This document shows positions 22,972 to 37,964 of a stretch of 64,000 nucleotides of DNA, in pieces. The notes under the pieces were generated by a model, which was not told the DNA's origin, made no database searches, and saw nothing but the letters and a program-made list of their open reading frames with translations. Source of the stretch: Nitrospira sp. CG24E. GTDB lineage: Bacteria > Nitrospirota > Nitrospiria > Nitrospirales > Nitrospiraceae. The DNA lies in the NCBI GenBank assembly GCA_002869895.2, contig NEWP02000002.1, positions 1 to 64,000 of the forward strand. The letters run 5' to 3'. Position numbers and translations under genes: made by a program. Each line of letters begins with the position of its first letter. The first letter of the stretch is position 1.

Positions 22972-25485
22972 TTAGCGGATCCTGTTGCTGACGTTCTTGA
23001 CGGTATTCTTATAGTTCCCCGTCACGTCCGTGAACGTCACCGTATCGAGATAGGTCCCGACAGCCGTGTGCGTCGTGCTGCTCAGGTCCAGCCCGGCGCT
23101 CAAATCTTCACCCAATACCCCCGTCGCCGTCCCGGTCGCCGTATGGGCTGCTCCATCGAAGAGCACGTCGTAGCCGGTCACCGTGATGATGGCATTGGCC
23201 TTGTTGATCGTGCTCTTCACGTTCTTGAGCGTGTTCTTATAGTTCCCCGTCACGTCCGTGAAGGTCACCGTATCGATATACGTGCCCGCATTGGTGTGTG
23301 ACGTGACACTCAAATCCAGCCCAGCACTCAAGTCCTCGCCCAGGACGCCCGTCGCCGTCCCGGTCGCCTGATGCGCTGCCCCATCGTAGGTCCCGACGTA
23401 GCCCGTCAGGCTGATCACGGCGTTGGCCTTGTTGATGGTGCTCTTGACGTTCTTGACCGTGTGCTTATAGTTCCCCGTCACGTCGGTGAAGGTCACCGTA
23501 TCGATGTACACACCCGCATTCGTATGGGACGTGACGCTCAGGTCCATCCCGGCACTCAAGTCCTCGCCCAGGACGCCCGTCGCCGTCCCGGTCGCCTGAT
23601 GCGATGCCCCGTCGTAGGTCCCGACGTAGCCCGTCAGGCTGATCACGGCGTTGGCCTTACTGATCGTGCTCTTCACGTTCTTGACGGTGTCCCTGTAGTT
23701 GCCCGTCACGTCCGTGAAGGTCACCGTATCGACGTACGAACCAGCATTGCTGTGCGATGTGACACTCAGGTTCAGGCCAACCAGGCTCTCACCCAAGACG
23801 CCGGTCGCCGTCCCCGTCGCCTGATGTACCGACCCGTCGTAGGTGCCATAGTAGCCCGTCAAGCTGAGCACGGCGTTGGCCTTGGTGATCACGATGGCCA
23901 CGCTGCCGTTCGTCTCGTTGTAGTTGGTCCCGCCGCTGAACGACCAGTCAGCCGTGCCGCCCGGCGCATTGGCGAAGCTCGCGCCCAGATTCAGCCCGGC
24001 GCTCAAGTCCTCGCCCAGCACGCCCGTCGCGCTGCCGGTCGCCCCGTGCGCCGCTGCATCATAGACGCCGGTGTAGCCGCTCACGTTGACTGTCGCGTCA
24101 GCCTTGGCGATATCTGCCGTCGTCGTATTGACCGGCGCAAGGGTATAGTTCTCCTTGTCCGTGCCTGTGAGAGTCGCACCTGTGAAGCTCACGAGCTTGC
24201 CGCTGCCGGCGTTCGCGTCAGAGAAGGTCGCAGTGCCGCCGCTCAGACCTACGACATCTGGGGCGATGACTCCCGCGAGCGTCGCGATCACACCGGACGT
24301 TGTGGTCGTACCGTCATAGACCTTGTTGTCCACTGTGAGATTGACCGTCAGTTCCTTGGCTGTGATGTTCCCTGTGCCGGTGAGGGTGGACGAGGCCAGG
24401 CTGTAGTTGAGCCTTTCTGTGCCGACGAGTGTCACGCCCGTGAGCGTCACGGTCTTGTTGCTGCCTGCATTCGCATCGCTGAAGGTTGCTGTGCTGAAGA
24501 CCACACTCACATCGTCTGGTGCGAGAACCCCAGTGAGCGTCACGATCACGCCGGTCGCTGCCGTGCTGCCGTCATACGCCTTGTCGTTCACGGTGAAGCT
24601 GGCCGTGAGTTGTTTCGGAGTCACCGTGTGTGTGATGCTGGCCGAGGTGCTGTCATTAAAAAACAGTTTGTCTCCTGTGACTGGGTCTGCTGCGCCGATA
24701 AATACGGCATGGAGATTCGGATGCGGTCCCTCAATGAGATACTGATTGACGGTGATGCTCCAGGTCGATGTTCCAACACCGGTGCTGTCGGGGACAGTGA
24801 AGGCCCCCATTAACGCCGACCCATCCCAGAACTCCACCGTGCCGGTCGGCGCATCGGTGCCAGCCGCAGCTGTCACAGTCGCGGTGAACGTCACAATATC
24901 TCCGTAGATGGTCGTGGGGGTGCTGGAGGTGAGCACGGTGGTCGTATTCACTGCCACGTCCGTGAACGCCTGAGTCGCCACAGCCCCCGACTCCTGGCCG
25001 GCGGCCGTCACTAAGAGAGACGAGTTCCTGTACTGCTCCTCTACAAACCAAGTGGTGCTGATGCTGCTGTTGACTGTGAGGTCGTTGTCCGGCGCAATCC
25101 AGTCTGCGATTCCATCGCCGCTCACGTCCGATCCCAGATGGGCCACAAACCCTCCGACTCCGTCTGTGACATACCAGGCTTCGTTGCCTGCCGGTCCTAC
25201 ATCAGACGTTGAGCCGATGTAATCCGCCATGCTGTCTGTGCGGGTCACTTGAAAATGCACCAGTTCACCGGACGTGAATTGCAGACCATCACCAGCCTGG
25301 TTCGAGGTCGTAATTACCGCTGTCTCACCCGGCGCATAGTCCAGATGATCGGTGGTGACCACCGCGGCCGTCATCGGTGTCGCCGACAGGAGCAGACGGG
25401 GTTCCATCGACTCCAGCACAAACGCATTGGCACGCGGCTCACGGCGATTACTCTTTTTGCGGGCAAACAGCTTCTTGAACTTCAT
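22972..25485 (-). CDS. LEPR-XLL domain protein with YDG and MBG repeats (paralogue 1)
   Basis: An 837-residue protein; ATG 25485 follows GGAGAG. It has no Sec signal. The N-terminus is very basic (MKFKKLFARKKSNRREPRAN) and is followed by LESMEPRLLLSA, the LEPR-XLL motif found at the N-terminus of large repeat proteins and thought to be a sorting signal. Residues ~45-200 are a domain shared with the second paralogue, and ~200-300 an Ig-like domain. Two YDG domains (KAYDGSTAATG, KVYDGTTTTSG) and then five MBG-type units of ~76 residues follow (GYVGTYDGA, GTATGVLGEDLSAGL, NAGTYIDTVTFTDVTGNY), ending KNVSNRIR. It is probably a secreted adhesin-like protein and a substrate of the export genes upstream. 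Confidence 0.88.
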   Translation of the reverse strand: MKFKKLFARKKSNRREPRANAFVLESMEPRLLLSATPMTAAVVTTDHLDYAPGETAVITTSNQAGDGLQFTSGELVHFQVTRTDSMADYIGSTSDVGPAGNEAWYVTDGVGGFVAHLGSDVSGDGIADWIAPDNDLTVNSSISTTWFVEEQYRNSSLLVTAAGQESGAVATQAFTDVAVNTTTVLTSSTPTTIYGDIVTFTATVTAAAGTDAPTGTVEFWDGSALMGAFTVPDSTGVGTSTWSITVNQYLIEGPHPNLHAVFIGAADPVTGDKLFFNDSTSASITHTVTPKQLTASFTVNDKAYDGSTAATGVIVTLTGVLAPDDVSVVFSTATFSDANAGSNKTVTLTGVTLVGTERLNYSLASSTLTGTGNITAKELTVNLTVDNKVYDGTTTTSGVIATLAGVIAPDVVGLSGGTATFSDANAGSGKLVSFTGATLTGTDKENYTLAPVNTTTADIAKADATVNVSGYTGVYDAAAHGATGSATGVLGEDLSAGLNLGASFANAPGGTADWSFSGGTNYNETNGSVAIVITKANAVLSLTGYYGTYDGSVHQATGTATGVLGESLVGLNLSVTSHSNAGSYVDTVTFTDVTGNYRDTVKNVKSTISKANAVISLTGYVGTYDGASHQATGTATGVLGEDLSAGMDLSVTSHTNAGVYIDTVTFTDVTGNYKHTVKNVKSTINKANAVISLTGYVGTYDGAAHQATGTATGVLGEDLSAGLDLSVTSHTNAGTYIDTVTFTDVTGNYKNTLKNVKSTINKANAIITVTGYDVLFDGAAHTATGTATGVLGEDLSAGLDLSSTTHTAVGTYLDTVTFTDVTGNYKNTVKNVSNRIR

Positions 25486-25650
25486 GTTGGACTCTCCTGT
25501 TGGTTAGTAATTATGAGGTGCGAAATTTATTTCTGAAGATGATGTGTTCCATCCGATCTATCTACTCATATGCGATTGGCCAAGTGGAATGCGTGCTATG
25601 TGTACACTTGCCGCTCGATAGGATGAAATCCATCTTAGGTGCAGGGAGAC

Positions 25651-25665
25651 CCCCCATAGGAGGGA
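25651..25665 (-). promoter_or_regulatory. CCCTCCT-NN-GGRGG motif upstream of LEPR-XLL paralogue 1
   Basis: Minus strand TCCCTCCTATGGGGG, about 165 bases upstream of ATG 25485. The first seven bases CCCTCCT are identical in all three copies, and spacing to the G-run is the same. Confidence 0.4.
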
Positions 25666-25830
25666 GAGAGGGAAGGGATGGAGGCTGATGCTCTTCTGTG
25701 CTTGCGCAACGCGCGGTCGGAGACTCCCCTCGTTGGACGTGCGCACTAGAAGACCAATCAGCCCCCATCCTTGAAGAGAACACAAGCAGGCTTGAAGGGA
25801 CCAGTTCTATAGTTCGAAGCGCGGAGGACA

Positions 25831-25869
25831 GGGGACTGGCTCCGCCTGCTGCGGCGGTGCCTTGTCCCC
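25831..25869. repeat. GGGACTGGCTCCGCC palindromic repeat, copy 2
   Basis: GGGGACTGGCTCCGCC and GGCGGTGCCTTGTCCCC form the arms. It is near-identical to the copy at 22517-22553, and each copy lies on the 3' side of one of the repeat-protein genes. Confidence 0.6.
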
Positions 25870-25881
25870 ATTCTCTGACCG

Positions 25882-25912
25882 CGGAGGTCACGCCGCTAAG
25901 GCGCGACCTCCG
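25882..25912 (-). terminator. Hairpin after the second LEPR-XLL gene
   Basis: CGGAGGTC-ACGCC and GGCGC-GACCTCCG form a 13-bp stem with one mismatch around GCTAA, 16 bases beyond the stop at 25928. No T-run follows. The position matches that of the hairpin at 22926-22959. Confidence 0.45.
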
Positions 25913-25927
25913 ATCGGCACGATCTGC

Positions 25928-27898
25928 TTAGCGGATCCTGTTGCTGACGTTCTTGACAGTAAACTTGTAGTTCCCCGTCGCATCGGTGAACGTCACCGTA
26001 TCGAGATAGGTCCCGACGGCCATGTGCATCGTGCTGCTCAGGTTCAGCCCGGCGCTCAGATCCTCGCCCAGGACGCCCGTCGCCATCCCCGTCGCCTGAT
26101 GCGGCAGGCCGTCGAAGAGCACGTCGTAGCGAGTCAGCGTGATCACGGCGTTAGCCTTGTTGATCGTGCTCTTCACGTTCTTGAGCGTGTTTTTGTAATT
26201 CCCCGTCACGTCCGTGAAGGTCACCGTATCGATGTACACCCCCGCATTCGTATGCGACGTGACGCTCAGGTCCAGCCCGCTCAGGCTCTCGCCCAAGATA
26301 CCCGTCGCCGTGCCCGTCATGTGGTGCGCGGACCCGTCATAGGTCCCGTAGTAGCCCGTCAGGCTGAGCACGGCATTGGCCTTGTTGATCGTGCTCTTCA
26401 CGTTCTTGAGCGTGTTCTTGTAATTCCCCGTCACGTCCGTGAACGTCACCGTATCGATATACGTGCCCGCATTGGTATGCGACGTGACACTCATGTTCAG
26501 CCCGGCCAGGTTCTCGCCCAAGACACCGGTGGCAGTCCCCGTCGCCTGGTGCGCCGACCCGTCGTAGGTCCCGTAGTACCCGGTCACCGCGATCACGGCG
26601 TTGGCCTTGGTGATGTCCGCCGTCGTCGTATTGACCGAGTCCAGGTCATAGTTGCTCGCGGCTGCGCCGGTGAGCGTTGCGCCCGTCAGCGTCACGGTCT
26701 TGCCGTTGCCGGCGTTCGCATTGTCGAAGGTGGCAGTGCCGCTGCTCAGGCTCACATCATCAACACCGATCACTCCCGTGAGCGCCCGGGTCTGCACGGT
26801 TGCAGAGACGTTGCCGTCGTACACCTTGTTCGCGACAGTGAAGCTGCCGGCGAGACTCTTCTGGCTCACCGTCTGTGCAAGATTTCCCGAGCTGCTGTTA
26901 TTGTATTGGCGATGTTTTCCATGCTCATCATGATCGGCATGGCCGTGGTGGTGTCGTTCCTGACCGCCTCGCCGATGGCTCTCTTCCTCTCCTCTATCAT
27001 GCCGATGATCATCCAGGTCTCGGTGCCGATCACGATGGTCCTGTCCGTGGTGGCGTCCAGATTCTCCCCGCTCAGACCCATGCCCCGCGCTTTCAGTAAA
27101 AACCGCGTGGATTGAGTGAGTACCGGCAGTGAGACTCGACAGAGAGATGGTAAAGATCGAGGCCGAGCCATTGCCCTTGTCGGCGGTAGAATCAATCCCT
27201 AGTGACCTCGTTCCATCGAAGAACTCGACAGATCCTCTCGGTCTTGCATGGCCAATAGCAGGCGTGACGCTCGCCGTGAACGTCACCGTATCTCCATAGA
27301 TGGACGCAGCGGCGCTGGAGGAGACCGTCGTAATCGTGTTGATTCTCGCATCCGTGAACGCCTGAGTCGCCAGAGCTCCTGACTCCTGGCCGGAGGCAGT
27401 CGCTAAGAGGGACGAGTTCCGGTACTGCTCCTCCACAAACCAGGTCGTGCTGATGCTGCTGTTGACGGTGAGATCGTTGTCTGGAGCAATCCAGTCCGCT
27501 ACGCCGTTGCCATCGCGGTCGACCGCCTGGCCATTCGCATCGAATTCTTGGCGCGCGGTAAACCCGCCGATTCCGTCGACGACATACCAGGCTTCGTTGC
27601 CTGCTGGTCCGACATTTGCCGTCGAGCCGGCAGAATCCACAATGCCGTCGGTGCGGCTGACTTGGAAGCGGATGAGTTCACCTGCCGCGAATTGCAGGCC
27701 ATCACCGGTCTGGATCGAGGTCGTAATCACCGCCGTCTCACCCGGCGCATAGTCCAGATGGTCGGTCGTCACCACGGCAGCCATCATCGGTGTCGCCGAC
27801 AGCAGCAGGCGTGGTTCCAGCGACTCCAGCATGAATTCATTGGCGCGGGGCGCACGGCGATGCTGCTTCTCGCGACGGAACAATTTCTTGAACTTCAT
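25928..27898 (-). CDS. LEPR-XLL domain protein with MBG repeats and His/Asp-rich insert (paralogue 2)
   Basis: A 656-residue protein; ATG 27898 follows GGGAGG at six bases and restores the same MKFKKLF start as in paralogue 1, whereas the frame open to 27982 does not. The layout is basic N-terminus, LESLEPRLLLSA motif, shared N-terminal domain, Ig-like domain, one YDG domain (KVYDGNVSATV), three MBG-type units, then the identical ending KNVSNRIR. The Ig-like domain is interrupted by ~65 residues rich in His, Asp, Arg and Glu (GQDHRDRHRDLDDHRHD, HHHGHADHDEHGKHR) that paralogue 1 lacks. The tail repeats are nearly identical in DNA to those of paralogue 1. Confidence 0.88.
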   Translation of the reverse strand: MKFKKLFRREKQHRRAPRANEFMLESLEPRLLLSATPMMAAVVTTDHLDYAPGETAVITTSIQTGDGLQFAAGELIRFQVSRTDGIVDSAGSTANVGPAGNEAWYVVDGIGGFTARQEFDANGQAVDRDGNGVADWIAPDNDLTVNSSISTTWFVEEQYRNSSLLATASGQESGALATQAFTDARINTITTVSSSAAASIYGDTVTFTASVTPAIGHARPRGSVEFFDGTRSLGIDSTADKGNGSASIFTISLSSLTAGTHSIHAVFTESAGHGSERGESGRHHGQDHRDRHRDLDDHRHDRGEEESHRRGGQERHHHGHADHDEHGKHRQYNNSSSGNLAQTVSQKSLAGSFTVANKVYDGNVSATVQTRALTGVIGVDDVSLSSGTATFDNANAGNGKTVTLTGATLTGAAASNYDLDSVNTTTADITKANAVIAVTGYYGTYDGSAHQATGTATGVLGENLAGLNMSVTSHTNAGTYIDTVTFTDVTGNYKNTLKNVKSTINKANAVLSLTGYYGTYDGSAHHMTGTATGILGESLSGLDLSVTSHTNAGVYIDTVTFTDVTGNYKNTLKNVKSTINKANAVITLTRYDVLFDGLPHQATGMATGVLGEDLSAGLNLSSTMHMAVGTYLDTVTFTDATGNYKFTVKNVSNRIR

Positions 27899-28336
27899 GC
27901 GGGACCTCCCTTTTGGTAATACGAGCGCCAAAATTCCGGTTGAAAATAGCCTCTGCGTTTTGCTCCATCTCACTAGAGCCATGGAGCCATTGGCCTCTAC
28001 ATAGAATAGTTATACAACGGGGCCAAGAAATGAACATTCCCCGGAGGTTGTCCCCCAAAGGAGGGAGGCTTGGGGCAGGTTGAGGTCGAGGTCGAGGTTG
28101 AGTAAAGAAAGGCTGGCGGACTATTTCAGCTTCCGGCTGGGCACGGAAACAGAGATCTGCAGGCCGGGGTACGTGAGTTAGACGCGGTAGGCTCTCTACG
28201 GGATGAACATGTAAAATTGATGGGCGAGATGGGCGAGATGAGCTAGACCTGCATGACAGGCGTGGCGTTCAGGTTGAGCAAGAAGCTGGTTTCTCACTCG
28301 ACCTTAGCCTCAACCTTAACCTTCCGATAACCGGGA
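27899..28336. other. Gap between the export genes and the LEPR-XLL genes
   Basis: No gene is supported here. The gap holds the upstream motif of paralogue 2 (28051-28066) and word-like repeats: GAGGTTGAG/GTCGAG units near 28078-28105 that are answered by CTCGACC...CTCAACC units near 28297-28322, and GGCGAGATG units near 28222-28242. The two outer blocks form a loose inverted repeat about 220 bases apart. Confidence 0.45.
28051..28066 (-). promoter_or_regulatory. CCCTCCT-NN-GGRGG motif upstream of LEPR-XLL paralogue 2
   Basis: Minus strand TCCCTCCTTTGGGGGA, about 150 bases upstream of ATG 27898, and the most symmetric of the three copies. The arms TCCC and GGGA are complementary around a CTCCTTTG core. 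Confidence 0.4.
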
Positions 28337-29668
28337 CTACCGCAGTTCTTCGACTTGTCCCATCGCGCGCGCCAGATTGACGCGCGAGGCATTGGCCCGA
28401 AATAAGCCATCGATCATGTTATCGCGCGCCCGCACCAGCGACAGCAGCGAGTTGGACAACTCCAAACTGTTCGAATTCAGCACACGGACTCGTTCGCGGG
28501 CAAGTTGAACTTCGGTCAGCGCCGACTTGAGTCCGTCCTTCGCGATTTTAAGTTGTTCCTTCGCCGAAGTGAGCGTGACCAGCGCTTCCCGCAACTCCAT
28601 CGTAATCTGGCGGGTGACGATGTTCATCTTAATCTCTTCCTGTAGGAGGCGGCTGCGGCCCTCGCCGATCCGCCCCTCCCGTTGGCCCCCGTCGAAGATC
28701 GGGATCGACAGGGTCAGCCCGACATTGTAGGTGCTCAGCGTGCTGTCGACCCTGTTTCCAATCAGCCCGAAATCTCCCTGCGCCTGCAGGGACGGCAGCC
28801 GTTCTCCCTTGATCGAACTCAGCATCAGGGTCGACACCTGCACCCGCTGCTCCTGGGCTTTCACTTCCGGCCGATTGCTGAACGCCACCTCCGTGGCATG
28901 TTCCTGAGTCGGAATCGGCTCGTCGCGCGCTTTCAGCTCATCGGTCAGAACCAGCTTCGAGTCGAAGTTGATCCCCAAGGCATTGATCAGTATCAGCTTG
29001 GTCCGCTCGACATCGCTCTTCGCCAGTTCCAATCGTTGCCGTTCATTTTCCAACTGGGTTTCCAGTCTGGCGGTATCGAGACCGGTGGCCATTCCGCCGC
29101 TCTGCCGGCTCTTGATATAGGAAACGAGTTCTTTATACAGCTCGACATTCGCCGCCCGCGCCGCTACCGTCTCGTAGTTCCGCAACACTTCCATATAATT
29201 CAAAGCCACGGTCGCCATCGTATCGTTCTTCGTCGTATCCGATTCTCCCTCGGCAACGGCCAAGGCGGCACGCGACGCGCGCCACCGTTCGATCAAGCTC
29301 CAACTGAAGAGCGACTGCGACAGGGTGCCTCGGGCATCGGCGATATCGAATGGTTGGCTGCGTGTCGGCGTACCGGCAATCGACCCTCGAAAGAAGGTCT
29401 GATTGTTGTACCGGGCGGACGAAGCCAGGTTGGGCAGTAAGGCGCCGAGATTCGTGGCCGTAACTCCACGCGCCGCTTCGATCCGTTCTTTGTACAAGCG
29501 CACATTGGGATTCTTGTCCAGCGCCGCCTCGATGGCGTCCCTCAAACTCAGCTTGAGCACCGGCTCCTCTTCCGGAACCTTCATCGGCAACTCGGCAGCC
29601 GGACTGGGTCCTGCGGAGAGAAGGCCTGCCACACAAATTGCCAACGTCACGCGCGCGCAGATTTTCAT
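28337..29668 (-). CDS. TolC-family outer membrane efflux protein
   Basis: A 443-residue protein with a signal peptide (VTLAICVAGLLSAGPSPAAE). It shows the TolC two-fold pattern: LSLRDAIEAALDKNPNVRLY at the start of the first repeat, long heptad-rich helices, and AFSNRPEVKAQEQRV at the start of the second, followed by the strand VGLTLSIPIFDGGQREGR. The length is close to that of TolC proteins from type I secretion and RND systems. It is the last gene of the export run, 150 bases after the HlyD-like gene, with a long hairpin repeat in between. It should form the outer membrane channel of the system. Confidence 0.92.
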   Translation of the reverse strand: MKICARVTLAICVAGLLSAGPSPAAELPMKVPEEEPVLKLSLRDAIEAALDKNPNVRLYKERIEAARGVTATNLGALLPNLASSARYNNQTFFRGSIAGTPTRSQPFDIADARGTLSQSLFSWSLIERWRASRAALAVAEGESDTTKNDTMATVALNYMEVLRNYETVAARAANVELYKELVSYIKSRQSGGMATGLDTARLETQLENERQRLELAKSDVERTKLILINALGINFDSKLVLTDELKARDEPIPTQEHATEVAFSNRPEVKAQEQRVQVSTLMLSSIKGERLPSLQAQGDFGLIGNRVDSTLSTYNVGLTLSIPIFDGGQREGRIGEGRSRLLQEEIKMNIVTRQITMELREALVTLTSAKEQLKIAKDGLKSALTEVQLARERVRVLNSNSLELSNSLLSLVRARDNMIDGLFRANASRVNLARAMGQVEELR

Positions 29669-29694
29669 CCGATCATATCCCCTTCACGGACAGG

Positions 29695-29815
29695 CTGGTT
29701 GCTCTGGTTTGTTTGGTTCATCTGGTCTATTTGGTTTGTTTGGTTTATTCGGTTCATTCGGCACGTTCCGTTCAACCAAACAAACAAAACAAACCAAACA
29801 AACTATACGAACCAG
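29695..29815. repeat. Long TTTGGT-type hairpin repeat, copy 1
   Basis: A left half made of GGTTTGTTTGGT-like units and a right half of ACCAAACAAACC-like units flank a core GTTCCGTTCAACC. It lies within the export gene run, between the TolC and HlyD genes. Related hairpins are at 37592-37741 and 40171-40251, with the same TTCAACCA core. Confidence 0.6.
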
Positions 29816-29818
29816 CGT

Positions 29819-30703
29819 TCACTGATTCTCTCCCGGCGGGCGGTGAAACTCCACCGTGCAAGCCAGGCCGGCGGGAATCGTATTATTCGGATTCGGCATT
29901 TCCAGACGAACGCCAAACGTGCCGCTGGCACTATCGACAACCTTGTTTACCACCATGACCTTCGCCTGATAAACCGGTTGCCCCTTTCCTTCCGGACGCA
30001 CATCGGCTCTCATGCCGGTTTTCAATTTACCGAGGAGCGAGATTGGCGCGAAGACTTCCACTCTCAGTGGATCGATCTGCGCCAGTTTCATCACCGGTGT
30101 CTGCTGGCGGGCCAATTCGCCGGGAGACAGCAGTCGATCCACGACCACGCCATTGATGGGGCTTCGAATCGTACGCAGCTCCAGGGCCACGGAGGCTCGA
30201 TTCAAATCCAACTCTGCCAGACGCCTGTTCTCAGACGCCTCTCGATGCAACACTTCCGCCAAGGATTTTTCCATCTGAGCCTCATCCATCTCGTGCTGGG
30301 CAATCGAGTTGCTCTTGAGCAACTCCAGCGCCCGTTCGTGCTTCCGACTGGTAAAGCCGATTTTCACCTGGCTGTTCTTCAACGCTGCCTCTGCCTCCGC
30401 CTTGGCTTTCGCAAACGCCACGGTCGCTTCTTCCATACTCGATTCGAGCGTCACGATCACTTGCCCCTTCTTCACCCAGTCCCCTCGGTCCACCGGCACC
30501 GTTTGAATCAACCCTTCCACCGGAATCCCGATAGAGATCTCGTCATAGGGTGTGATCACACAGGCCATTCCCGCTGCCGACGCCGGCGCCGGCGTCAGGA
30601 GATAGAGGCCGGCCGCGACAGTCAGGCTGCCTATCGCACATAGCCCTTTCAGCCGCCATCTGTGCAACTGTCTCGCTTCCTGACATTCCCCTAGCATGTC
30701 CAT
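29819..30703 (-). CDS. HlyD-family periplasmic adaptor
   Basis: A 294-residue membrane fusion protein. A single N-terminal membrane segment or signal (CAIGSLTVAAGLYLLTPAPA) is followed by a split biotinyl-lipoyl domain (GLIQTVPVDRGDWVKKGQVI and IRSPINGVVVDRLLSPGE) around a ~80-residue coiled-coil hairpin. A beta-barrel domain follows (LRVEVFAPISLLGKLKTGMR), then a short C-terminal part. It is shorter than adaptors of RND pumps and lacks a second C-terminal domain. It lies between the SecA-like and TolC genes and probably links the inner membrane part to TolC. Confidence 0.9.
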   Translation of the reverse strand: MDMLGECQEARQLHRWRLKGLCAIGSLTVAAGLYLLTPAPASAAGMACVITPYDEISIGIPVEGLIQTVPVDRGDWVKKGQVIVTLESSMEEATVAFAKAKAEAEAALKNSQVKIGFTSRKHERALELLKSNSIAQHEMDEAQMEKSLAEVLHREASENRRLAELDLNRASVALELRTIRSPINGVVVDRLLSPGELARQQTPVMKLAQIDPLRVEVFAPISLLGKLKTGMRADVRPEGKGQPVYQAKVMVVNKVVDSASGTFGVRLEMPNPNNTIPAGLACTVEFHRPPGENQ

Positions 30704-30744
30704 TCCACCATCCTATTTAATTTGTGTCGACTTGGGATGTGCTC

Positions 30745-30855
30745 AGAACACCTTCAGTCTTCAGCCTATCCACCTGAATAGTTGCTCTGGTCGAACGAGA
30801 AACAAGATACTCGAAACTTCCTCACGAGATACGCTTCACGCTTCACGTGACCCTA
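30745..30855. repeat. Word-like repeat DNA with CACGCTTCACG units
   Basis: Short sequence words such as CACGAGATACGCTTCACG and CTTCAGTCTTCAGCC occur here and recur at 22860-22925 and 40966-40990. No gene is present in this 160-base gap between the SecA-like and HlyD genes. Confidence 0.4.
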
Positions 30856-30864
30856 TTTCGCTTT

Positions 30865-32856
30865 TCACTCCAGCCGCCCGGAAAAGGCGAGCGACGTTTC
30901 CAGTGAATCCTCATGCTGCAACAGTTCCCGGCGAATCCGCGCGTGCAGGGACTCGGCAGACAGCTGAGCCTGCCGCACGAGAAACGCAGCCGGCTTACCC
31001 TGCAGCGGCCTTCCTCGACTCACCAGCGCCCGAGCCGTCCATCGCCATAGCAGACGCCGCGACGTCGCCATAATCTCATCCTCCAGCGACGCGACAATTT
31101 CAAAACTTCCCGGATCCCCCTGGCGACCGCTGCGGCCGTAAAGCTGCCGATCGATGCGCCCTGCTTCGTGCCGCTCTGTCGCCAAGACATGCAACCCCCC
31201 CGCCTCCGCCACCTTCGGCAACAATTTGATATCCGTGCCGCGACCGGCCATGTTCGTCGCCACCGTGACACGCCCCGGCAAACCGGCCTTGGCGACGATA
31301 TCGGCCTCTTCTTTGTCCTGTCTGGCATTGAGGACCACGTGCGGAACATTCGACGCGGTGAGTTTCTCGCTCAGAATTTCGGATGCGGAAACCGATTTCG
31401 TCCCCACCAGGATAGGCCGCCCCTGCTTATGGAGCTTCGTAATATGTTCGACGACCGCTTCCCACTTCTCATCCGCCGTCGAAAACAGCCATTCCCCTGT
31501 CGACTTCCTCTGTATCGGACGATTGGTAGGAACCGTCACGGTGGCCAAGCGATACACTTGCCACAACTCGGTGGCGACTTCCTGGCCCGTGCCGGTCATG
31601 CCGGCGAGCCACAAATACCGGCGGAAGAACCTCTGATAGGTGATCCGCGCCTGCGACGTCTGCATCGGTGTCAGCGGGCACCCTTCCTTCAATTCGATCA
31701 TTTGATGCAGCCCCTGTTCCCACGACCGGTCCTCCATGACACGCCCGGTGTACTCATCGATAATCTGGACCTTCTCATTCCTGACGAGATAATGGGTATC
31801 GCGATTGAATAAATGGAGGGCCGTAAGCGCCTGCCGAGCGAGTTCTTCTCGCCGCCGCGGCCCCGACCAGAAGCCGGTGAGATCCTTTGCCCGGGCCGTC
31901 AACAGGGCCTGTCCATCCGCGGTCAGGCGAATGCTCCGTTCACGCAGATCGATCTCATAATGGGATCCGCGTGTGAGGCCTCTCGCGAGCGTCAGCGCCG
32001 TCTCATAAATCGGCTTCTCCGGCACCTCTCCGCCGCTATTGGCGATGATGAGCGGGACTCGCGCCTCATCCACCAGAATGCTGTCCGCCTCGTCCACAAT
32101 GCCGAAACACAAGCCCCGGAGCACCAAATTCCGGAGCCTTGTCGCATCGCCATATAACTTTTCTAGTTGAAGCTGGATACGGTTGGGCTGCCGGCCCACG
32201 ACCAGGCGATCCCGCAGATAGTCGAACACCAGTTCCTTGTTCGTGCAGTAGGTCACATCGCAGGCATAGGCCGCGCGGCGCGCCACAGGGCCTTGCTCGT
32301 GGGTGATGACCCCGACAGACAGGCCCAGCATGTCGTAGATCGGGCCCATCTCTTCCGCATCCCGCGCCGTCAAATAATCGTTCACGGTAATCAGATGCAC
32401 CGGCACGCCGGCCAGGGCGGCAGTCGCCGCAGCCAAGGTGGCGGTCAAGGTCTTCCCTTCTCCCGTCGCCATCTCTGCCACACAGCCATTGAGTAAGACC
32501 CACCCACCGAGGATCTGCACGTCATAGTGCCGTTGGCCGATCGTCCGATGGGCCACCTCCCGCACCAGGGCAAAGGACCGAAACACCAGCTCGTTGCTGA
32601 AACCCTCGAGCCGGAGCTGCTCGCGCAAGAGCACGACCTCTTTACGCAACTGATCGTCGCGCAAGGCAGACAGGGAACGGCCCTGTTCCTTGACCGGTTC
32701 CACCACTTCGGTCCGCATGGCGGTGCGTTCCCGGATCCGCCGCATGATGGGACTCGCCAACTTCACTCCCTGCCGGTCGAACCAGCTCTCGCGTGGCACC
32801 GCCCGTTCCGGATAGGCGCTATGCAGCGCCGTCTGTTGCCGGGCCATATCAAACAT
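30865..32856 (-). CDS. SecA-like translocase ATPase, C-terminally shortened
   Basis: A 663-residue SecA paralogue. ATG 32856 overlaps the end of the upstream M50-HlyD gene by eight bases, implying coupling; the frame open to 32937 is less likely. Motifs: EMATGEGKTLTA (Walker A, Lys about 135), VHLITVNDYLTARDAEEMG, YCTNKELVFDYLRD, IVDEADSILVDEARVPLII (DEAD), MTGTGQEVATE, and ATNMAGRGTDIKL with YGRSGRQGDPGS in the second motor domain. The helical domains after the motor are reduced to ~70 residues, and the C-terminal linker and zinc site of house-keeping SecA are absent. It is most likely an accessory motor for a special set of substrates. Confidence 0.92.
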   Translation of the reverse strand: MFDMARQQTALHSAYPERAVPRESWFDRQGVKLASPIMRRIRERTAMRTEVVEPVKEQGRSLSALRDDQLRKEVVLLREQLRLEGFSNELVFRSFALVREVAHRTIGQRHYDVQILGGWVLLNGCVAEMATGEGKTLTATLAAATAALAGVPVHLITVNDYLTARDAEEMGPIYDMLGLSVGVITHEQGPVARRAAYACDVTYCTNKELVFDYLRDRLVVGRQPNRIQLQLEKLYGDATRLRNLVLRGLCFGIVDEADSILVDEARVPLIIANSGGEVPEKPIYETALTLARGLTRGSHYEIDLRERSIRLTADGQALLTARAKDLTGFWSGPRRREELARQALTALHLFNRDTHYLVRNEKVQIIDEYTGRVMEDRSWEQGLHQMIELKEGCPLTPMQTSQARITYQRFFRRYLWLAGMTGTGQEVATELWQVYRLATVTVPTNRPIQRKSTGEWLFSTADEKWEAVVEHITKLHKQGRPILVGTKSVSASEILSEKLTASNVPHVVLNARQDKEEADIVAKAGLPGRVTVATNMAGRGTDIKLLPKVAEAGGLHVLATERHEAGRIDRQLYGRSGRQGDPGSFEIVASLEDEIMATSRRLLWRWTARALVSRGRPLQGKPAAFLVRQAQLSAESLHARIRRELLQHEDSLETSLAFSGRLE

Positions 32857-34996
32857 TAAATCGCGACAAGAATAATTGTCGTCCCTGACGGAACCACTGG
32901 GCCATGAGCGGCACCCAACCATGATCGAAACGCACATACACGCGCCCGCCGACGTTCACCACGCCCAGATCGACGGGCAATTGGAGATCCATCTGAAAGA
33001 CCTTTCGCAGGGCTTTCTGGCCCTTGGGATCTTTCGGATCTATCGGTACCTGTCCCCCTCCTGCGCTCCCAAGCGCCGGGCTGGGAAGTTCATCGCTTGC
33101 CGCCGGTACCAGCCGCGTCACTCCGGCGTCGATGGGACTCACGATTCGTTCAGCCAACCGTACCTGGACCTGCTTCGTACTATGCCGGATCAAGTCGATA
33201 TCTGTCTGATCCACGACGGTGCGTACGGTCAACGTCTTGAGATCCACCACATGGGCCAACACATCGCCGCGATGCACAAATCGACCGGGTAAATCCTCCA
33301 CACGCGAGACGACCAAGGTGCCGTCCACCTTCGCGGTAATCACCAGATCGCGAACCCGTTCTCTCGTGCGGGCGAGTTTCTCTTCGATGTACCGCTTTTC
33401 TTCTTCGAGAATCTTCGCTTTGACGAGGTTCGTGGGAATGTGCTCGCGAATACGGGCATCGATCTCCTGGACCTGCGCCTGAAGCACTGTAAGCTGCGTC
33501 GTCAGCACCGAGTCGCGACAGACCACCAACACGTCGCCTTGCGACACTTTTGACCCTGGGATGCCCACCACCTGCTCGACGAACCCGTCGGCCCCGGCGC
33601 GCACGACCGCTTCGTCCGGAATCCACACGACCCCTTCTGCGCGCGTGCGAAACGGCACAGGAGTCAAACAGAGCGCCACGATGACAACTGCCACCGCTCC
33701 GGCCGTCACCGCGATCGCCCTGCCACGCACGCGGCGGAGGCGCGGGCCCGTGAAGAGATAACCGAAGCCCTTTCCCAGCGGAATCAGGAACCAGGTGATC
33801 GCCGTCACTGCGGCGAAGAACATACCCAGCGCAAACCATTGATCGGTCAGATACATCAGGATCACGAATACGATGAAGACTCGATAGAGAAAGGCGCTGA
33901 CTGCATAGCCGACAAACCAGACTCGCTCGCCCGGTGTGGCATGCGGCACCTGTGCCTCCGTCCGGCCAAAGGGATACCGCTCGCACAGGTACCCCAGATA
34001 CTTGTTGCCTCGCTGGCCCAAATTGGGAATTTCAGTCAGATCGGCGAGCATGTGGTACCCATCGAACCGGAGCAGAGGATTGCCGTTGAAGATGACAGTC
34101 GAGATCCCCGCAATCATGACGGTGTTATAGGCCAGGGTGCTGACAAGGCCCGGCTCGACGCTGACCCATACCAAGATGGCGATCGAGGCGATCATCAATT
34201 CGACGATCATGCCGGCTGCGCCGACGACTGCCCTCTGCCACTTACTGGAAAAGGCCGACGAGGCAGAGGCATCGACATAGGGCACAGGCGAAAACACCAG
34301 CAGCATGATGCCCATCTCGTGCACTTCCCCGCCGAACGCCTTGACGGCAAAAGCGTGACCAAACTCGTGCAGCGCTTTGATGATCGGGAACAGGAACCAG
34401 AGCAGCACCAGATTCTGTGGAGTCGTGATCTGGTCGATGAGATTGGCCGTCAGGTCCGACCAATGCGTGGCCCCGACCAGCAGACCCGGAATCACGATCG
34501 CGAGCCACAAGGCCGCGCCGCCCCAGCCGAAGAAGGGGCGGACCAAGGACACGAAGGTCTGCAGCAATCGTTCCGGGTCGAAGAGGGGAAACTGCCAGGC
34601 AAAGACGTTCATCAGCTTGCGCTGCCACTTCTTCTGTCGCGTACGCTCATGTCGATGCAACAATTCCGCGATGTCGGGAGGAATATCGCACTGCAACACA
34701 TCAGTCGAGTGGAGCTGGCTCAAGAGCTGCACCACTTCAGGTTGAGTCGGAGCATCGTCGCCCAGCTTCGTGGAGACGAGGTCCCAGATCTCCTGGACCG
34801 TGCGCTTCCCATCCATCAAGCCGATGAAGGCGTAGGCAGAGGGAGAAAAGCGATGGTACCGTTCGTTCGACCGGTCCTGGAGCACGTACCAGGTCTGACC
34901 GCGATACTGATGCCGATGCAATTGAGCATGGCTGCGCAAGCGTGGGGAAAGGGTCGCCACGCGATACCAGGAAGGGCTAAAGAGGGCTTCGCTCAT
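32849..34996 (-). CDS. PqqD-like/M50 peptidase/HlyD fusion membrane protein
   Basis: A 715-residue polytopic membrane protein. Residues ~20-100 resemble a PqqD or winged-helix peptide-binding domain (YRGQTWYVLQDRSNERYHRF, GKRTVQEIWDLV). Residues ~150-430 form an M50/site-2-protease-like membrane domain with HEFGH (His210, Glu211, His214) and NGNPLLRFDGYH (Asn306 to Asp312), so the zinc site looks intact. After the last membrane helix (~440-455), a HlyD-type part follows with split lipoyl motifs (GFVEQVVGIPGSKVSQGDVL, ITAKVDGTLVVSRVEDLPG) and a coiled coil. It is translationally coupled to the SecA-like gene and is probably the central inner membrane part of the export system. Confidence 0.9.
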   Translation of the reverse strand: MSEALFSPSWYRVATLSPRLRSHAQLHRHQYRGQTWYVLQDRSNERYHRFSPSAYAFIGLMDGKRTVQEIWDLVSTKLGDDAPTQPEVVQLLSQLHSTDVLQCDIPPDIAELLHRHERTRQKKWQRKLMNVFAWQFPLFDPERLLQTFVSLVRPFFGWGGAALWLAIVIPGLLVGATHWSDLTANLIDQITTPQNLVLLWFLFPIIKALHEFGHAFAVKAFGGEVHEMGIMLLVFSPVPYVDASASSAFSSKWQRAVVGAAGMIVELMIASIAILVWVSVEPGLVSTLAYNTVMIAGISTVIFNGNPLLRFDGYHMLADLTEIPNLGQRGNKYLGYLCERYPFGRTEAQVPHATPGERVWFVGYAVSAFLYRVFIVFVILMYLTDQWFALGMFFAAVTAITWFLIPLGKGFGYLFTGPRLRRVRGRAIAVTAGAVAVVIVALCLTPVPFRTRAEGVVWIPDEAVVRAGADGFVEQVVGIPGSKVSQGDVLVVCRDSVLTTQLTVLQAQVQEIDARIREHIPTNLVKAKILEEEKRYIEEKLARTRERVRDLVITAKVDGTLVVSRVEDLPGRFVHRGDVLAHVVDLKTLTVRTVVDQTDIDLIRHSTKQVQVRLAERIVSPIDAGVTRLVPAASDELPSPALGSAGGGQVPIDPKDPKGQKALRKVFQMDLQLPVDLGVVNVGGRVYVRFDHGWVPLMAQWFRQGRQLFLSRFNV

Positions 34997-34998
34997 AA

Positions 34999-35138
34999 AG
35001 TTGCAAGTTGTGAGTGGCGAGTAGCGAGTGGCGAGTGGGCGAATCGGTCCATAATCATAAGACAGAAACTCGCAACTCGAAACCTCCCGCGCCTTGCGCT
35101 TCCTACTTTCTACTTCCTACTAGCTACTTGCCAGTTAC
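34999..35138. repeat. Word-like repeat DNA (GAGTGGCGAGTAGCGAG)
   Basis: Units of GAGTGGCGAGT and later CTACTTTCTACTTCCTACT occur in the gap between the two HlyD-fusion genes. The first block has partial complementarity to ACTCGCAACTCG downstream, so a weak hairpin is possible. No gene is present. Confidence 0.35.
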
Positions 35139-35142
35139 TTTG

Positions 35143-37065
35143 TCAGGGGAGCCACGACCAAGCGGCCAACCTCATCCAATCCACCATCTGGTGCGTCCAG
35201 ATCCAGACCAAGGAACGACGATCGATCTCGATCTTGCCCGCTCCTTCCATCCCTGGGCGCAGGCGATCGTGCGGTTGATCGAACCGCGCCTCGACTCGAA
35301 AGAAATTCCTGTTCTCCTTCGCCGTGGACACGGGCGTCACCTTCTCCACGGTCACCGCGATCTCCTCGCTCGGAAAGGCCGACAGCAAGAGGGAGCCCGG
35401 TTGCCCGACCGCAACATCCGCGATATCCCGCTCATCGACTTCGATCACCAGACGGTAACTGTCGAGCGGCGCGACTTCGAAGAGCACTTTCCCCTTTTCG
35501 ATCGGCGCGCCCAACTGCTGGCTGAGATCGCCGGTCACGACGATCCCGTCGAAGGGCGCGACAACCTTGGTATGCGCGAGCTGATCGTCCAGCAGGGCGA
35601 TCTCCGCCTGCGCCTGGTGCATCTGCGCAGTTACGATTTCCACCTTAGCCGCTTCCCGTTCGGCCATCGCCTTGTGATATTCCTTTTGATATTCTTCAAG
35701 CTTGCTCAGCGATTTCAGCCGCTCCAACCTCAGCTCCCGGTCATCCAGCGTGCAGAGCATCTGGCCTGCCTGCACCAGATCGCCAGCCCGCACCGGCGCT
35801 TCGCGGATATACCCATTGAACGGCGCCGCAGCGGCGCGCTGCACGATCGGCTCCAGAACTGTTTTGGCCGAAACGCGGTAGTCTCCCTTCGCCAGAAAGC
35901 AAAAGAGCGCGAGACCCACGACCGCGACGGTCGTCACCTTCAACGCCACATGTCGCGGGCCGACCAAGGAGACGAGATAGTATTTGACTGAGTCCGCCGC
36001 TTTGGTAATCAGCCAACGATCGTCCCGCCGGTGCGTTTCCAGAATCGGGCCGGCCAGTGCGGCGACCGATTGGCAGAGTTCGATCGCCTTGCTATCGAAT
36101 GGCCGATCCATCGGCCGTTCGAGCATCACCGCGCCAATCGGGATCCCGAGCGCTTCCAGCGGAACCGAACAGAGGGCCACGGACCCATGCTGCCGGGCCA
36201 GCTCTGTATGGGTGCGCGATATCACACCCGTCTTCGGTGACCCGTTGGGAAAGACAATGGTCTCCCGTTGATCCACCGCTTCGTCCATGGCCTCGGAGAT
36301 ACTCCGGATGAGATTGGTCTGTTGCTTGAATTCTGCGCTGTGCGACACGGCAAAGCCCCGCGTGCGGCCCCGCGTCACAAACCCGACACTCACACGATCG
36401 CACTGCAGCTTCGTGGCCAGGGCGGTCACCAGCGCCATCGCCGATTCGTAGAACCGTTCGTGGCCGACAGAGGTGGCCACCAGATCCAGCGCGGTTTGAA
36501 TGCGCTCGCGGGTCTCCTGTTCAGCCTTCACCGCTTCTCGCGAGAACAGCAACTCCAGCCAAGCTGCGCCCCAATGGAGTTGCCGCATCATGGCCTGCAG
36601 ATTTTCGGCGCTCTTGGACACGACTTCGAAGACGGCGGCGCCGTGAATGACTCCGCCCGCTTCAATCGGACGCCCGATCGCGTACCGCCCGATCCCGGAC
36701 TCGGTGGAGACGAGCCCGTCCCCGCCCCGCATGACGATTTCCCGCCGTTCCTTCAGTGTCTTCTCAGCCGTCTTACTCAGATGAGTGAGAAAGTGCCCTT
36801 TCACAGGCCAGGTCGCAACAGGACGGAAGGGACCTCGATCAGCCGGGCCCAACAGGATCATGCCGGCTTCCACCGGGCCGATCACGCGACATTGGAGTTC
36901 GAGCCAGCTCGCGCAGAAGGATTCGATGCTCGCCGCATGGGCAAACCGGGCCCAAAGCCCTGAGTCCTGCTCGCCTTCGGCCGGGGCCACGGAAGCAGCA
37001 GCAGCAGACTCAGTCCCTCGACGTAATGCGCCTCGTTCAGATTCAGACTCGACGTATCGATCCAT
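35143..37065 (-). CDS. GAF-domain/HlyD fusion protein
   Basis: A 640-residue protein. The N-terminal ~350 residues are cytoplasmic and contain two GAF-like domains (about 45-175 and 190-345, the second with CDRVSVGFVTRGRTRGFAVS and SVALCSVPLEALGIPIGAVM) joined by a helix. One membrane segment (about 373-391) leads to a periplasmic HlyD part: lipoyl half NGYIREAPVRAGDLVQAGQM, coiled coil, second half VVAPFDGIVVTGDLSQQLGA, and a beta barrel up to GMEGAGKIEI. A sensory domain directly fused to an adaptor suggests that a signal molecule could gate export. The start at 37065 is without a clear ribosome site. Confidence 0.88.
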   Translation of the reverse strand: MDRYVESESERGALRRGTESAAAASVAPAEGEQDSGLWARFAHAASIESFCASWLELQCRVIGPVEAGMILLGPADRGPFRPVATWPVKGHFLTHLSKTAEKTLKERREIVMRGGDGLVSTESGIGRYAIGRPIEAGGVIHGAAVFEVVSKSAENLQAMMRQLHWGAAWLELLFSREAVKAEQETRERIQTALDLVATSVGHERFYESAMALVTALATKLQCDRVSVGFVTRGRTRGFAVSHSAEFKQQTNLIRSISEAMDEAVDQRETIVFPNGSPKTGVISRTHTELARQHGSVALCSVPLEALGIPIGAVMLERPMDRPFDSKAIELCQSVAALAGPILETHRRDDRWLITKAADSVKYYLVSLVGPRHVALKVTTVAVVGLALFCFLAKGDYRVSAKTVLEPIVQRAAAAPFNGYIREAPVRAGDLVQAGQMLCTLDDRELRLERLKSLSKLEEYQKEYHKAMAEREAAKVEIVTAQMHQAQAEIALLDDQLAHTKVVAPFDGIVVTGDLSQQLGAPIEKGKVLFEVAPLDSYRLVIEVDERDIADVAVGQPGSLLLSAFPSEEIAVTVEKVTPVSTAKENRNFFRVEARFDQPHDRLRPGMEGAGKIEIDRRSLVWIWTHQMVDWMRLAAWSWLP

Positions 37066-37128
37066 AGCGATGTCTCAGTGGATAGAGCTGCGATGACTGC
37101 GCGGTGTTACCATCTGTATCCGGATGCC

Positions 37129-37473
37129 TTACTTCGCCGGAGTCCGTTCCGTCTGCGCCGCGCCCATGTCCATGACACCGAAGCGGGCTTCATACTGTTG
37201 CACCACGGAATTCAGCAAGAGCGCCAGCCGTTTTGCGGCAAAGGGGCTGAGGATCACCCGTGAGTTCAACTTCACATGCACTTCCGACGCATCACGCTCC
37301 CACGCGTTATTCATGCCGAAGACCAGCACGACCTCTTCCCGCGAACTGGAGACGTTGCACACATTCGCATAGGCATTGATAATCCCCGTATCGTCGAATT
37401 TAACGACCGGGCTGGTCGCTACCGTCTTGGCAGCCTCGGACGTTCCATTAGCGTCTTTTTGTTTTGTAGACAT
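37129..37473 (-). CDS. DUF3467 family protein
   Basis: A 114-residue soluble protein; ATG 37473 follows GAAGAGGACC. The pattern INAYANVCNVSSSREEVVLVFG, then HVKLNSRVILSPFAAKRLALLL and YEARFG, is that of DUF3467, a small family of unknown function. It is the first gene of the export run, 60 bases upstream of the GAF-HlyD gene. DUF3467 genes are also found apart from secretion loci, so the link comes from position only. Confidence 0.85.
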   Translation of the reverse strand: MSTKQKDANGTSEAAKTVATSPVVKFDDTGIINAYANVCNVSSSREEVVLVFGMNNAWERDASEVHVKLNSRVILSPFAAKRLALLLNSVVQQYEARFGVMDMGAAQTERTPAK

Positions 37474-37964
37474 GGTCCTCTTCCTTCGTTATAGGAAACG
37501 ACTGTGAACGTGCATTCCACCATTCTTTTCCCATCCTGCAGAGGGCTGCTGAAAGCACCCGCAAGCCTCTGGGCACATCTATCCTGTTCGTGTAGTCTGT
37601 TCAGTCTGTTTGGTCTATCTGGTCTGTCTTGTCTATTCGGTCTATCTGGCTTCTCAGGCCTATCCGGCGCGTTTCATTCAACCAGACAGACCAGACGGAC
37701 CAGATGAACCAGATAGACAAGATTGACCAGATAGACCTGACTTGTGACCCCCTTACAAGCCCTTGTACGTGTCACAGTCTAGCAGACTGTTTCTGGATCA
37801 CTAGTAAATTGCGAATACCCTTTTCTCCTAAGACTCCCTGTTCATTGAAGACTCTGTGAACTCCATGGCATTGCGGCCGGCAGGCACAACCTCGGAGGTT
37901 TTTCTCTTCCATTCCTATCTCCTCCCCCTTGTGATACGGTGTACGAACTGTGGAATCTTCATTC
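37474..37964. other. Divergent promoter region between the export genes and glgB
   Basis: This 491-base region has no supported gene. It should contain the promoters of the minus-strand export run and of glgB. Its middle is taken up by a long hairpin repeat (37592-37741). Confidence 0.45.
37592..37741. repeat. Long TTTGGT-type hairpin repeat, copy 2
   Basis: The left half has TCTGTTTGGTCTATCTGGTC-like units, and the right half ACCAGACAGACCAGA-like units. The centre is GCGTTTCATTCAACCAGAC. It is the longest of the three copies, about 150 bases. Confidence 0.6.

Follow-up and report, generated by a model that had tools for sequence, protein, structure and literature searches.

Gene content of the locus

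The window analyzed here is a stretch of 64,000 nt of contig NEWP02000002.1 from Nitrospira sp. CG24E. Positions 22972–37473 hold genes for a shortened SecA, an M50-type zinc protease fused to a PqqD-like and a HlyD domain (PqqD-M50-HlyD), further HlyD-type adaptors and a TolC-family channel, together with two LEPR-XLL repeat proteins. An earlier reading of the letters alone (the sequence-only reading) had described a run of eight minus-strand genes; open reading frames (ORFs) and Pfam and NCBIfam domains bear it out, with eight contiguous ORFs, all on the minus strand and in the order described. Comparison across genomes strongly supports the conclusion that LEPR-XLL proteins belong with this gene set, to which they are linked near-exclusively. 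The features are as follows:

37129..37473, minus strand: DUF3467 protein, 114 aa, a small cytosolic accessory protein (Pfam PF11950, 72 bits)
35143..37065, minus strand: GAF-HlyD (Pfam GAF and HlyD_3)
32849..34996, minus strand: PqqD-M50-HlyD, 715 aa (Pfam PqqD, M50 and HlyD)
30865..32937, minus strand: short SecA, ORF of 690 aa (Pfam SecA_DEAD, SecA_PP_bind and P-loop_SecA)
29819..30703, minus strand: free HlyD-family periplasmic adaptor with a hydrophobic N-terminus (HlyD_D23/HlyD_3; TIGR01730 131 bits, over cut-off)
28337..29668, minus strand: TolC-family outer-membrane protein with a Sec-type N-terminus (OEP, 150 bits)
25928..27898, minus strand: LEPR-2, likely cargo, about 656 aa (NF012209, 28.3 bits; basic start, ESLEPRLLLSAT, Ig-like/YDG repeats)
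27773..27835, minus strand: LEPR-XLL motif of LEPR-2, proposed export signal
22972..25485, minus strand: LEPR-1, likely cargo, 837 aa (NF012209, 27.2 bits; basic start, ESMEPRLLLSAT, Ig-like/YDG repeats)
25360..25422, minus strand: LEPR-XLL motif of LEPR-1, proposed export signal

M50-HlyD genes fall into a SecA-linked type, here called class A, to which this locus belongs, and a SecA-free type, class B. The PqqD-M50-HlyD protein of the locus has a PqqD-like domain at residues ~24–97 (PF05402, 24.5 bits against a cut-off of 23.4), a zinc-protease core with HEFGH at 210–214 and NP..RFDG at 306–313 (Pfam M50 score 25.3, just under the cut-off of 27.2) and a HlyD region at 446–715. In an AlphaFold2 model (mean pLDDT 85), residues 24–97 fold as beta-beta-beta-alpha-alpha-alpha, which is the order of PqqD-type leader-binding domains, the recognition elements (RREs) of ribosomally synthesized and post-translationally modified peptides (RiPPs). 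The C-terminal half matches MexA/MacA/AcrA (E 6e-11), and comparison of M50-HlyD with PDB sequences gave no match. Because the protein has seven transmembrane helices with Lys and Arg confined to one, cytosolic side, the PqqD domain is predicted to be cytosolic and the HlyD half periplasmic. Neither the HExxH motif nor the distal N..P...FD motif varies among the 39 class A and B members compared, and this invariance of the active-site residues argues for M50 as a working protease, making a pure pore role less likely.

The host genome encodes two SecA proteins, a housekeeping one (932-codon frame) and the short one of the locus, which are 43% identical over their shared part. Alignment of the two indicates that the short SecA keeps NBD1, PPXD and NBD2, i.e., both ATPase lobes and the preprotein clamp, and ends inside the scaffold helix, without the two-helix finger, wing and C-tail; its ATPase motifs are conserved in 83 relatives. 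Its best score against NCBIfam SecA2 models is 559 bits, where the cut-off is 1085. The first ATG of the ORF overlaps the M50 gene by 89 nt, and an internal ATG near 32856 would reduce this to the few bases that are usual. The parts kept and lost by the short SecA may point to a grip-and-feed motor taken off the usual work with SecYEG. GAF-HlyD is predicted to have a single transmembrane segment (~377–392), with the GAF domain inside and the HlyD membrane-fusion domain in the periplasm. Judging from these topologies, GAF-HlyD, M50-HlyD, the free HlyD and TolC together are predicted to span the whole envelope.

Linkage of LEPR-XLL genes to class A sets

Class A relatives were sought with a profile built from 14 M50-HlyD proteins, and the best 80 loci were examined. 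The relatives belong to Nitrospirota, Rokubacteria, Alpha-, Beta-, Gamma- and Deltaproteobacteria, Omnitrophota and Myxococcota, and their gene order is largely fixed: SecA is found at 74 of the 80 loci, GAF-HlyD at 77, HlyD at 57 and DUF3467 at 29, with four of the six loci that miss SecA lying at contig ends. The sequence-only reading had also claimed that the locus has no ABC exporter, and this holds, as the 64-kb window contains no ABC-ATPase signature (LSGGQ/E/M) and an ABC-ATPase-like ORF occurs at just 4 of the 80 class A loci.

LEPR genes were called with the NF012209 profile (curated cut-off 17 bits) and were found in 44 of the 50 class A genomes checked, in open frames of up to 14,390 codons. 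Their baseline rate in unselected genome sets, each of which includes the genome used as its centre, was 7/148 in Nitrospirota, 17/229 in Gammaproteobacteria and 2/240 in Alphaproteobacteria. When adjacency was counted with contig identity checked (55 class A sets, 45 genomes), 31 sets shared a contig with a LEPR gene, which was never more than 11 kb away and in 30 cases had the same orientation as the set. Co-occurrence of LEPR-XLL proteins with SecA, M50-HlyD and GAF-HlyD, the check suggested by the sequence-only reading, was thereby found. Among the Nitrospirota, seven genomes have LEPR genes and seven have class A sets, six of them shared (p 4e-9), and among the Gammaproteobacteria without the centre the numbers are 16, 16 and 13 (p 6e-16), both p-values being too small owing to kinship among the genomes. 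Among the 240 alphaproteobacterial genomes drawn, only the centre genome has class A. The spread over phyla and the pairing at duplicated sets are independent of these p-values: four genomes with two sets (G175, G180, G186 and G192) have one LEPR giant beside each set. Plasmids of Pseudosulfitobacter, Methylosinus, Mesorhizobium, Pontibrevibacter, Thalassospira and a rhodobacteraceous strain likewise carry LEPR giants beside or near the set. The seventh Nitrospirota LEPR genome is a class B case. Some apparent exceptions to the pairing of LEPR with class A dissolve because the seventh Nitrospirota class A set (G043) has LEGRILLAAD beside it, so that all seven sets there have such a gene, and because G135 and G420 have a motif of the class B type (LEPRLLFDGA) along with M50-HlyD genes of that class. 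Adjacency across bacterial groups thus makes the LEPR proteins likely cargo of the machine.

Several observations concern the remaining genes at or near the sets. The DUF3467 protein was modeled as beta-beta-beta-alpha (pLDDT 69) and its model had no significant match in the PDB; the idea that it is a SecB-like chaperone was dropped, given this fold without a significant match and with SecB not among the matches listed. Near three other sets, DUF3467 is fused to a conserved C-terminal domain of ~270 residues in proteins of 373–416 aa (L093:3403-4524, L109:4030-5280 and L150:3374-4498). Two roseobacter-type plasmids carry a SapC-family gene within or beside the set (L051:17260-18081 and L084:12069-12848), a family linked to S-layer proteins. 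In the window, a 9-base unit (TGGTTTATT / AACCAAACA type) makes up imperfect inverted arrays at 29694–29816, between the HlyD and TolC genes, and at 37595–37740, upstream of the DUF3467 gene, and these arrays could form long hairpins. At 15795–21941, adjoining multicopper-oxidase-like genes, lies the gene of a 2048-aa protein that combines SdrD_B, NosD-like and choice-of-anchor Q parts and has a Sec-type N-terminus, a surface protein by another route rather than a LEPR protein.

The leader motif and the SecA-free class

The two LEPR-XLL genes of the host genome are both at this locus. NF012209 (LEPR-8K) matches residues 22–42 of LEPR-1 and residues 50–70 of the listed LEPR-2 ORF. The motif that the sequence-only reading gave as LEPRLLLSA reads MEPRLLLSAT and LEPRLLLSAT in the two proteins. 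The listed LEPR-2 ORF has 684 aa and starts at 27982, and an alternative ATG lies 28 codons downstream at 27898. A GGGAGG (Shine–Dalgarno) precedes this ATG and ATGAAGTTCAAGAAATTG, the same start as in LEPR-1 (MKFKKLF...), and the true start is most probably 27898, the listed one being too early. With this start, the hydrophobic stretch upstream of that ATG is not a signal peptide. Behind the LEPR-XLL domain, only YDG and Big_3_5 repeats exceed their Pfam cut-offs in the two proteins, and no RTX domain does so. LEPR-1 contains tandem repeats of 228-bp units (22991–23890). LEPR-2 has a histidine- and acid-rich stretch of ~65 residues (26872–27073) with a metal-binding look that is absent from LEPR-1.

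Over 45 LEPR N-termini, the consensus reads (F/L)-E-x-L-E-P-R-(L/I/V)-L-L-S-A-D, with the R invariant and a basic stretch ahead of it; these N-termini were selected with the NF012209 profile, and the consensus is sharper for it. The earlier description of basic N-termini without a Sec signal agrees with the family as a whole, with a mean charge of +4.1 and a mean maximum hydropathy of 0.77, compared to 1.8–2.4 for secreted proteins of the window, so that no Sec-like core is seen. A regular expression for the strict motif, applied within residues 10–110 of the 1,521 ORFs of at least 300 aa in the fetched loci, hit 49 ORFs, with 0.0 expected from 50 shuffles, and essentially all 49 are large proteins adjoining an M50-HlyD set. 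Many of the giants contain RTX-type GGxGxD repeats, which are generally known to fold only after leaving the cell. PF07595, the planctomycete extracellular motif, matched exactly over LE.R.LL in the N-termini of three of five class A cargo proteins from relatives (E 0.006–0.1), below its cut-off of 25.5 bits (best 16.7 bits, in a relative) and without a match in LEPR-1; it may represent the same signal as the LEPR leader. A LEPR-XLL protein of a same-genus genome (L041:13260-19501) has animal-haem-peroxidase and RHS-repeat domains, and cargo can therefore be enzymes and not repeat adhesins alone. Alphaproteobacterial giants at five loci (L051, L053, L085, L125 and L137) end alike, in a short tail like GLLKRLGSLFKK / GLLSRLVSLFGGR that may be an anchor or a further signal.

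The host genome also has a distant second M50-HlyD (contig C82, 1–6161; locus L049), 25% identical to the copy in the window, in a TolC-HlyD-HlyD-M50-HlyD set with a DUF4347 protein that starts SLEPRLMFDAAAAA (LEPRLMFDAA). This class B operon, TolC-HlyD-HlyD-M50-HlyD followed by a large protein, occurs in 19 Nitrospirota genomes, and neither SecA, GAF nor DUF3467 was found within it in the host or its Nitrospirota relatives. The large protein starts with LE(P/S/Q)RLMFDAAA, followed by DUF4347 and cadherin-like repeats. DUF4347 was detected in 20 of the 148 Nitrospirota genomes, namely all 19 with class B and one genome that is 74% complete (p 5e-23). As a general marker of class B, DUF4347 fails in Gammaproteobacteria, where class A genomes carry it too and 6 of 22 DUF4347 genomes lack an M50-HlyD match. 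A Variovorax plasmid gene of ~16,000 codons beside a class B set begins ALEARYMFDAAA.

SecA goes only with the LLSAD form of the leader. As both classes pair an LExR leader with PqqD-M50-HlyD, the constant partner is PqqD-M50-HlyD and not SecA, and the comparison of the two classes makes the former a better candidate than SecA for the core and for the reader of the signal. The proposal that a SecA-like motor takes the place of the ABC transporter is consistent with class A, with SecA at 74 of 80 loci; class B, which lacks SecA, is the main reason why we do not call SecA the essential motor.

Proposed export route and known systems

We consider it moderately probable that the locus encodes a type I-like trans-envelope exporter plus two cargo proteins and works along the following route, in which strict cargo status, the docking and cutting steps, the path taken and the supply of energy by SecA are what we infer. 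The cargo N-terminus, a basic stretch followed by E-x-L-E-P-R-x-L-L-S-A, would be an address tag rather than a Sec signal, and would dock on the cytosolic PqqD/RRE-like domain of PqqD-M50-HlyD. The short SecA, a two-lobed ATPase with a clamp and minus the parts that drive SecYEG, would grip the unfolded chain and feed it into a path of the M50-HlyD membrane core. The chain would then pass a periplasmic collar of three HlyD-type proteins and exit via TolC, while the M50 zinc protease would cut the tag, probably at or near LLSA|D. The PqqD domain as receptor of the leader, M50 as its processing enzyme and SecA as motor are each consistent with the findings but remain candidate assignments. More tentatively, and with somewhat less than even confidence, both classes may represent one widespread pathway in which PqqD-M50-HlyD reads an N-terminal LExR leader and passes giants of up to ~14,000 residues from cytosol to surface in one step, with SecA (LLSAD) or without it (MFDAA, DUF4347), the planctomycete motif being the same leader.

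Several points weigh against this account. G273 and G409 have LEPR matches without any M50-HlyD match, and 45 of 76 LEPR sites (45 genomes) are on contigs without a set. Contig breaks, together with sets that serve several cargos, could account for these. The LEPR-1 leader has a hydropathy of 1.62 just past the motif, closer to a signal peptide than the family mean, and we know of no precedent for an M50 core as a polypeptide conduit. SecA may not be an obligatory motor, as a motif of this kind also accompanies the class without SecA, and the complete-looking class A loci L104 and L109 and the Thalassospira plasmid L059 have no SecA at the locus. These three loci carry LEPR cargo or DUF3467, and their SecA may have been lost or be encoded at another site of the genome.

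The last points bear on an unlikely but serious alternative, that PqqD-M50-HlyD, HlyD and TolC are the whole exporter, powered by the proton gradient or by an ATPase from another locus, and that SecA is an add-on for unfolding or holding long cargo. In class B, TolC, two HlyD proteins and M50-HlyD adjoin the motif-bearing DUF4347 protein with no ATPase conserved in the operon, and the two go together in 19 of the 20 Nitrospirota DUF4347 genomes and in 19 of the 19 class B genomes. However, SecA adjoins M50 at 74 of 80 class A loci, and its strict order and conserved ATPase motifs suggest that it is more than incidental in class A. The 43% identity to the housekeeping SecA over both ATPase lobes and the clamp would also suit a two-step route, in which the short SecA partners SecYEG in the manner of an accessory SecA2 and the role of HlyD/TolC is limited to carrying the protein outward from the periplasm. 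This is improbable, as the two-helix finger, wing and C-tail that work with SecYEG are missing, the score is far under the NCBIfam SecA2 cut-offs and the cargo family shows no Sec-like signal.

A Vibrio LEPR protein with C-terminal RTX/serralysin-like domains has been reported (PMC10868602), and RTX repeats occur in several giants. LEPR proteins might accordingly leave via an ABC type I exporter encoded elsewhere, with the locus processing, anchoring or regulating them at the surface; given the lack of an ABC signature in the window and the rarity of ABC-like ORFs (4/80 loci), together with window cargos free of RTX and three HlyD domains and a TolC that are export parts, we regard this as decidedly improbable. 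Scarcely credible is that adjacency is incidental, or that the M50 set makes a RiPP-like modified peptide with LEPR proteins as unrelated neighbors. PqqD and M50 do resemble daptide and epipeptide maturation proteins, all under cut-off, but no modifying enzyme is conserved at the loci, and one-to-one pairing repeated across phyla and at duplicated sets strongly disfavors chance.

The trans-envelope exporter with LEPR cargo is our preferred reading, and its apparatus has a precedent. Secondary SecA_DEAD loci with M50-HlyD, GAF-HlyD and HlyD, with or without OEP and without an ABC transporter, were described from hosts that include Nitrospirae, with SecA proposed as ATPase, M50 as membrane part or pore, and the biological role stated as unknown (Kamneva, Poudel & Ward, 2015, PMC4452313). 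One operon given there is META1p2399-2402 of Methylobacterium extorquens AM1. The gene set of the sequence-only reading is real, but its apparatus is not new: it was predicted in 2015, and the locus is a new member of that predicted kind. The main text of that paper names no cargo, does not contain the words LEPR, PqqD, DUF3467 or cadherin, and does not describe the SecA-free sister class. A literature search that left out most subscription papers and bioRxiv found no published link between LEPR-XLL and an exporter, and a secretome paper on Methylococcus capsulatus spoke neither for nor against one. What appears to be new is the assignment of the cargo and of its leader motif, the PqqD domain as candidate reader, and the sister class that does without SecA. 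If true, the cargo link would provide the 2015 machine with a cargo and a role: it would export some of the largest bacterial proteins, among them surface proteins of nitrifiers, Accumulibacter, methylotrophs, rhizobia and marine roseobacters. An N-terminal motif that so far was an orphan would become an export signal open to testing, and whether SecA can power a trans-envelope exporter without an ABC transporter could be tested directly.

The locus resembles those of Kamneva and colleagues in having, besides the housekeeping SecA, a short SecA without most of SecA_SW, and neighboring M50-HlyD, GAF-HlyD and HlyD with no ABC transporter, and it agrees with them in gene order and domain composition; it differs in interpretation, as they propose an M50 pore and we favor a protease. 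NF012209 in NCBIfam defines a domain only, and its attachment to an exporter comes from this analysis. With classical type I systems (HlyB-HlyD-TolC), the locus shares HlyD adaptors and TolC, both present here, Sec-signal-free cargo and very large repeat or RTX proteins. In contrast to them, there is no ABC exporter with its adaptor and no C-terminal signal or RTX in the window cargos, and the proposed signal is N-terminal and combined with a SecA-like ATPase and a membrane protease. Accessory Sec systems (SecA2, SecA2/SecY2) likewise dedicate a second SecA to a few large surface proteins, whereas here SecA is shortened, the locus shows no SecY2 and an outer-membrane channel completes the set. 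Daptide and epipeptide metalloproteases (NF041824, NF058609) share a PqqD-like N-terminal domain and an M50 core with PqqD-M50-HlyD, which scores 169 bits against NF041824 (cut-off 300); unlike them, the protein described here is fused to HlyD and paired with giant proteins rather than peptides.

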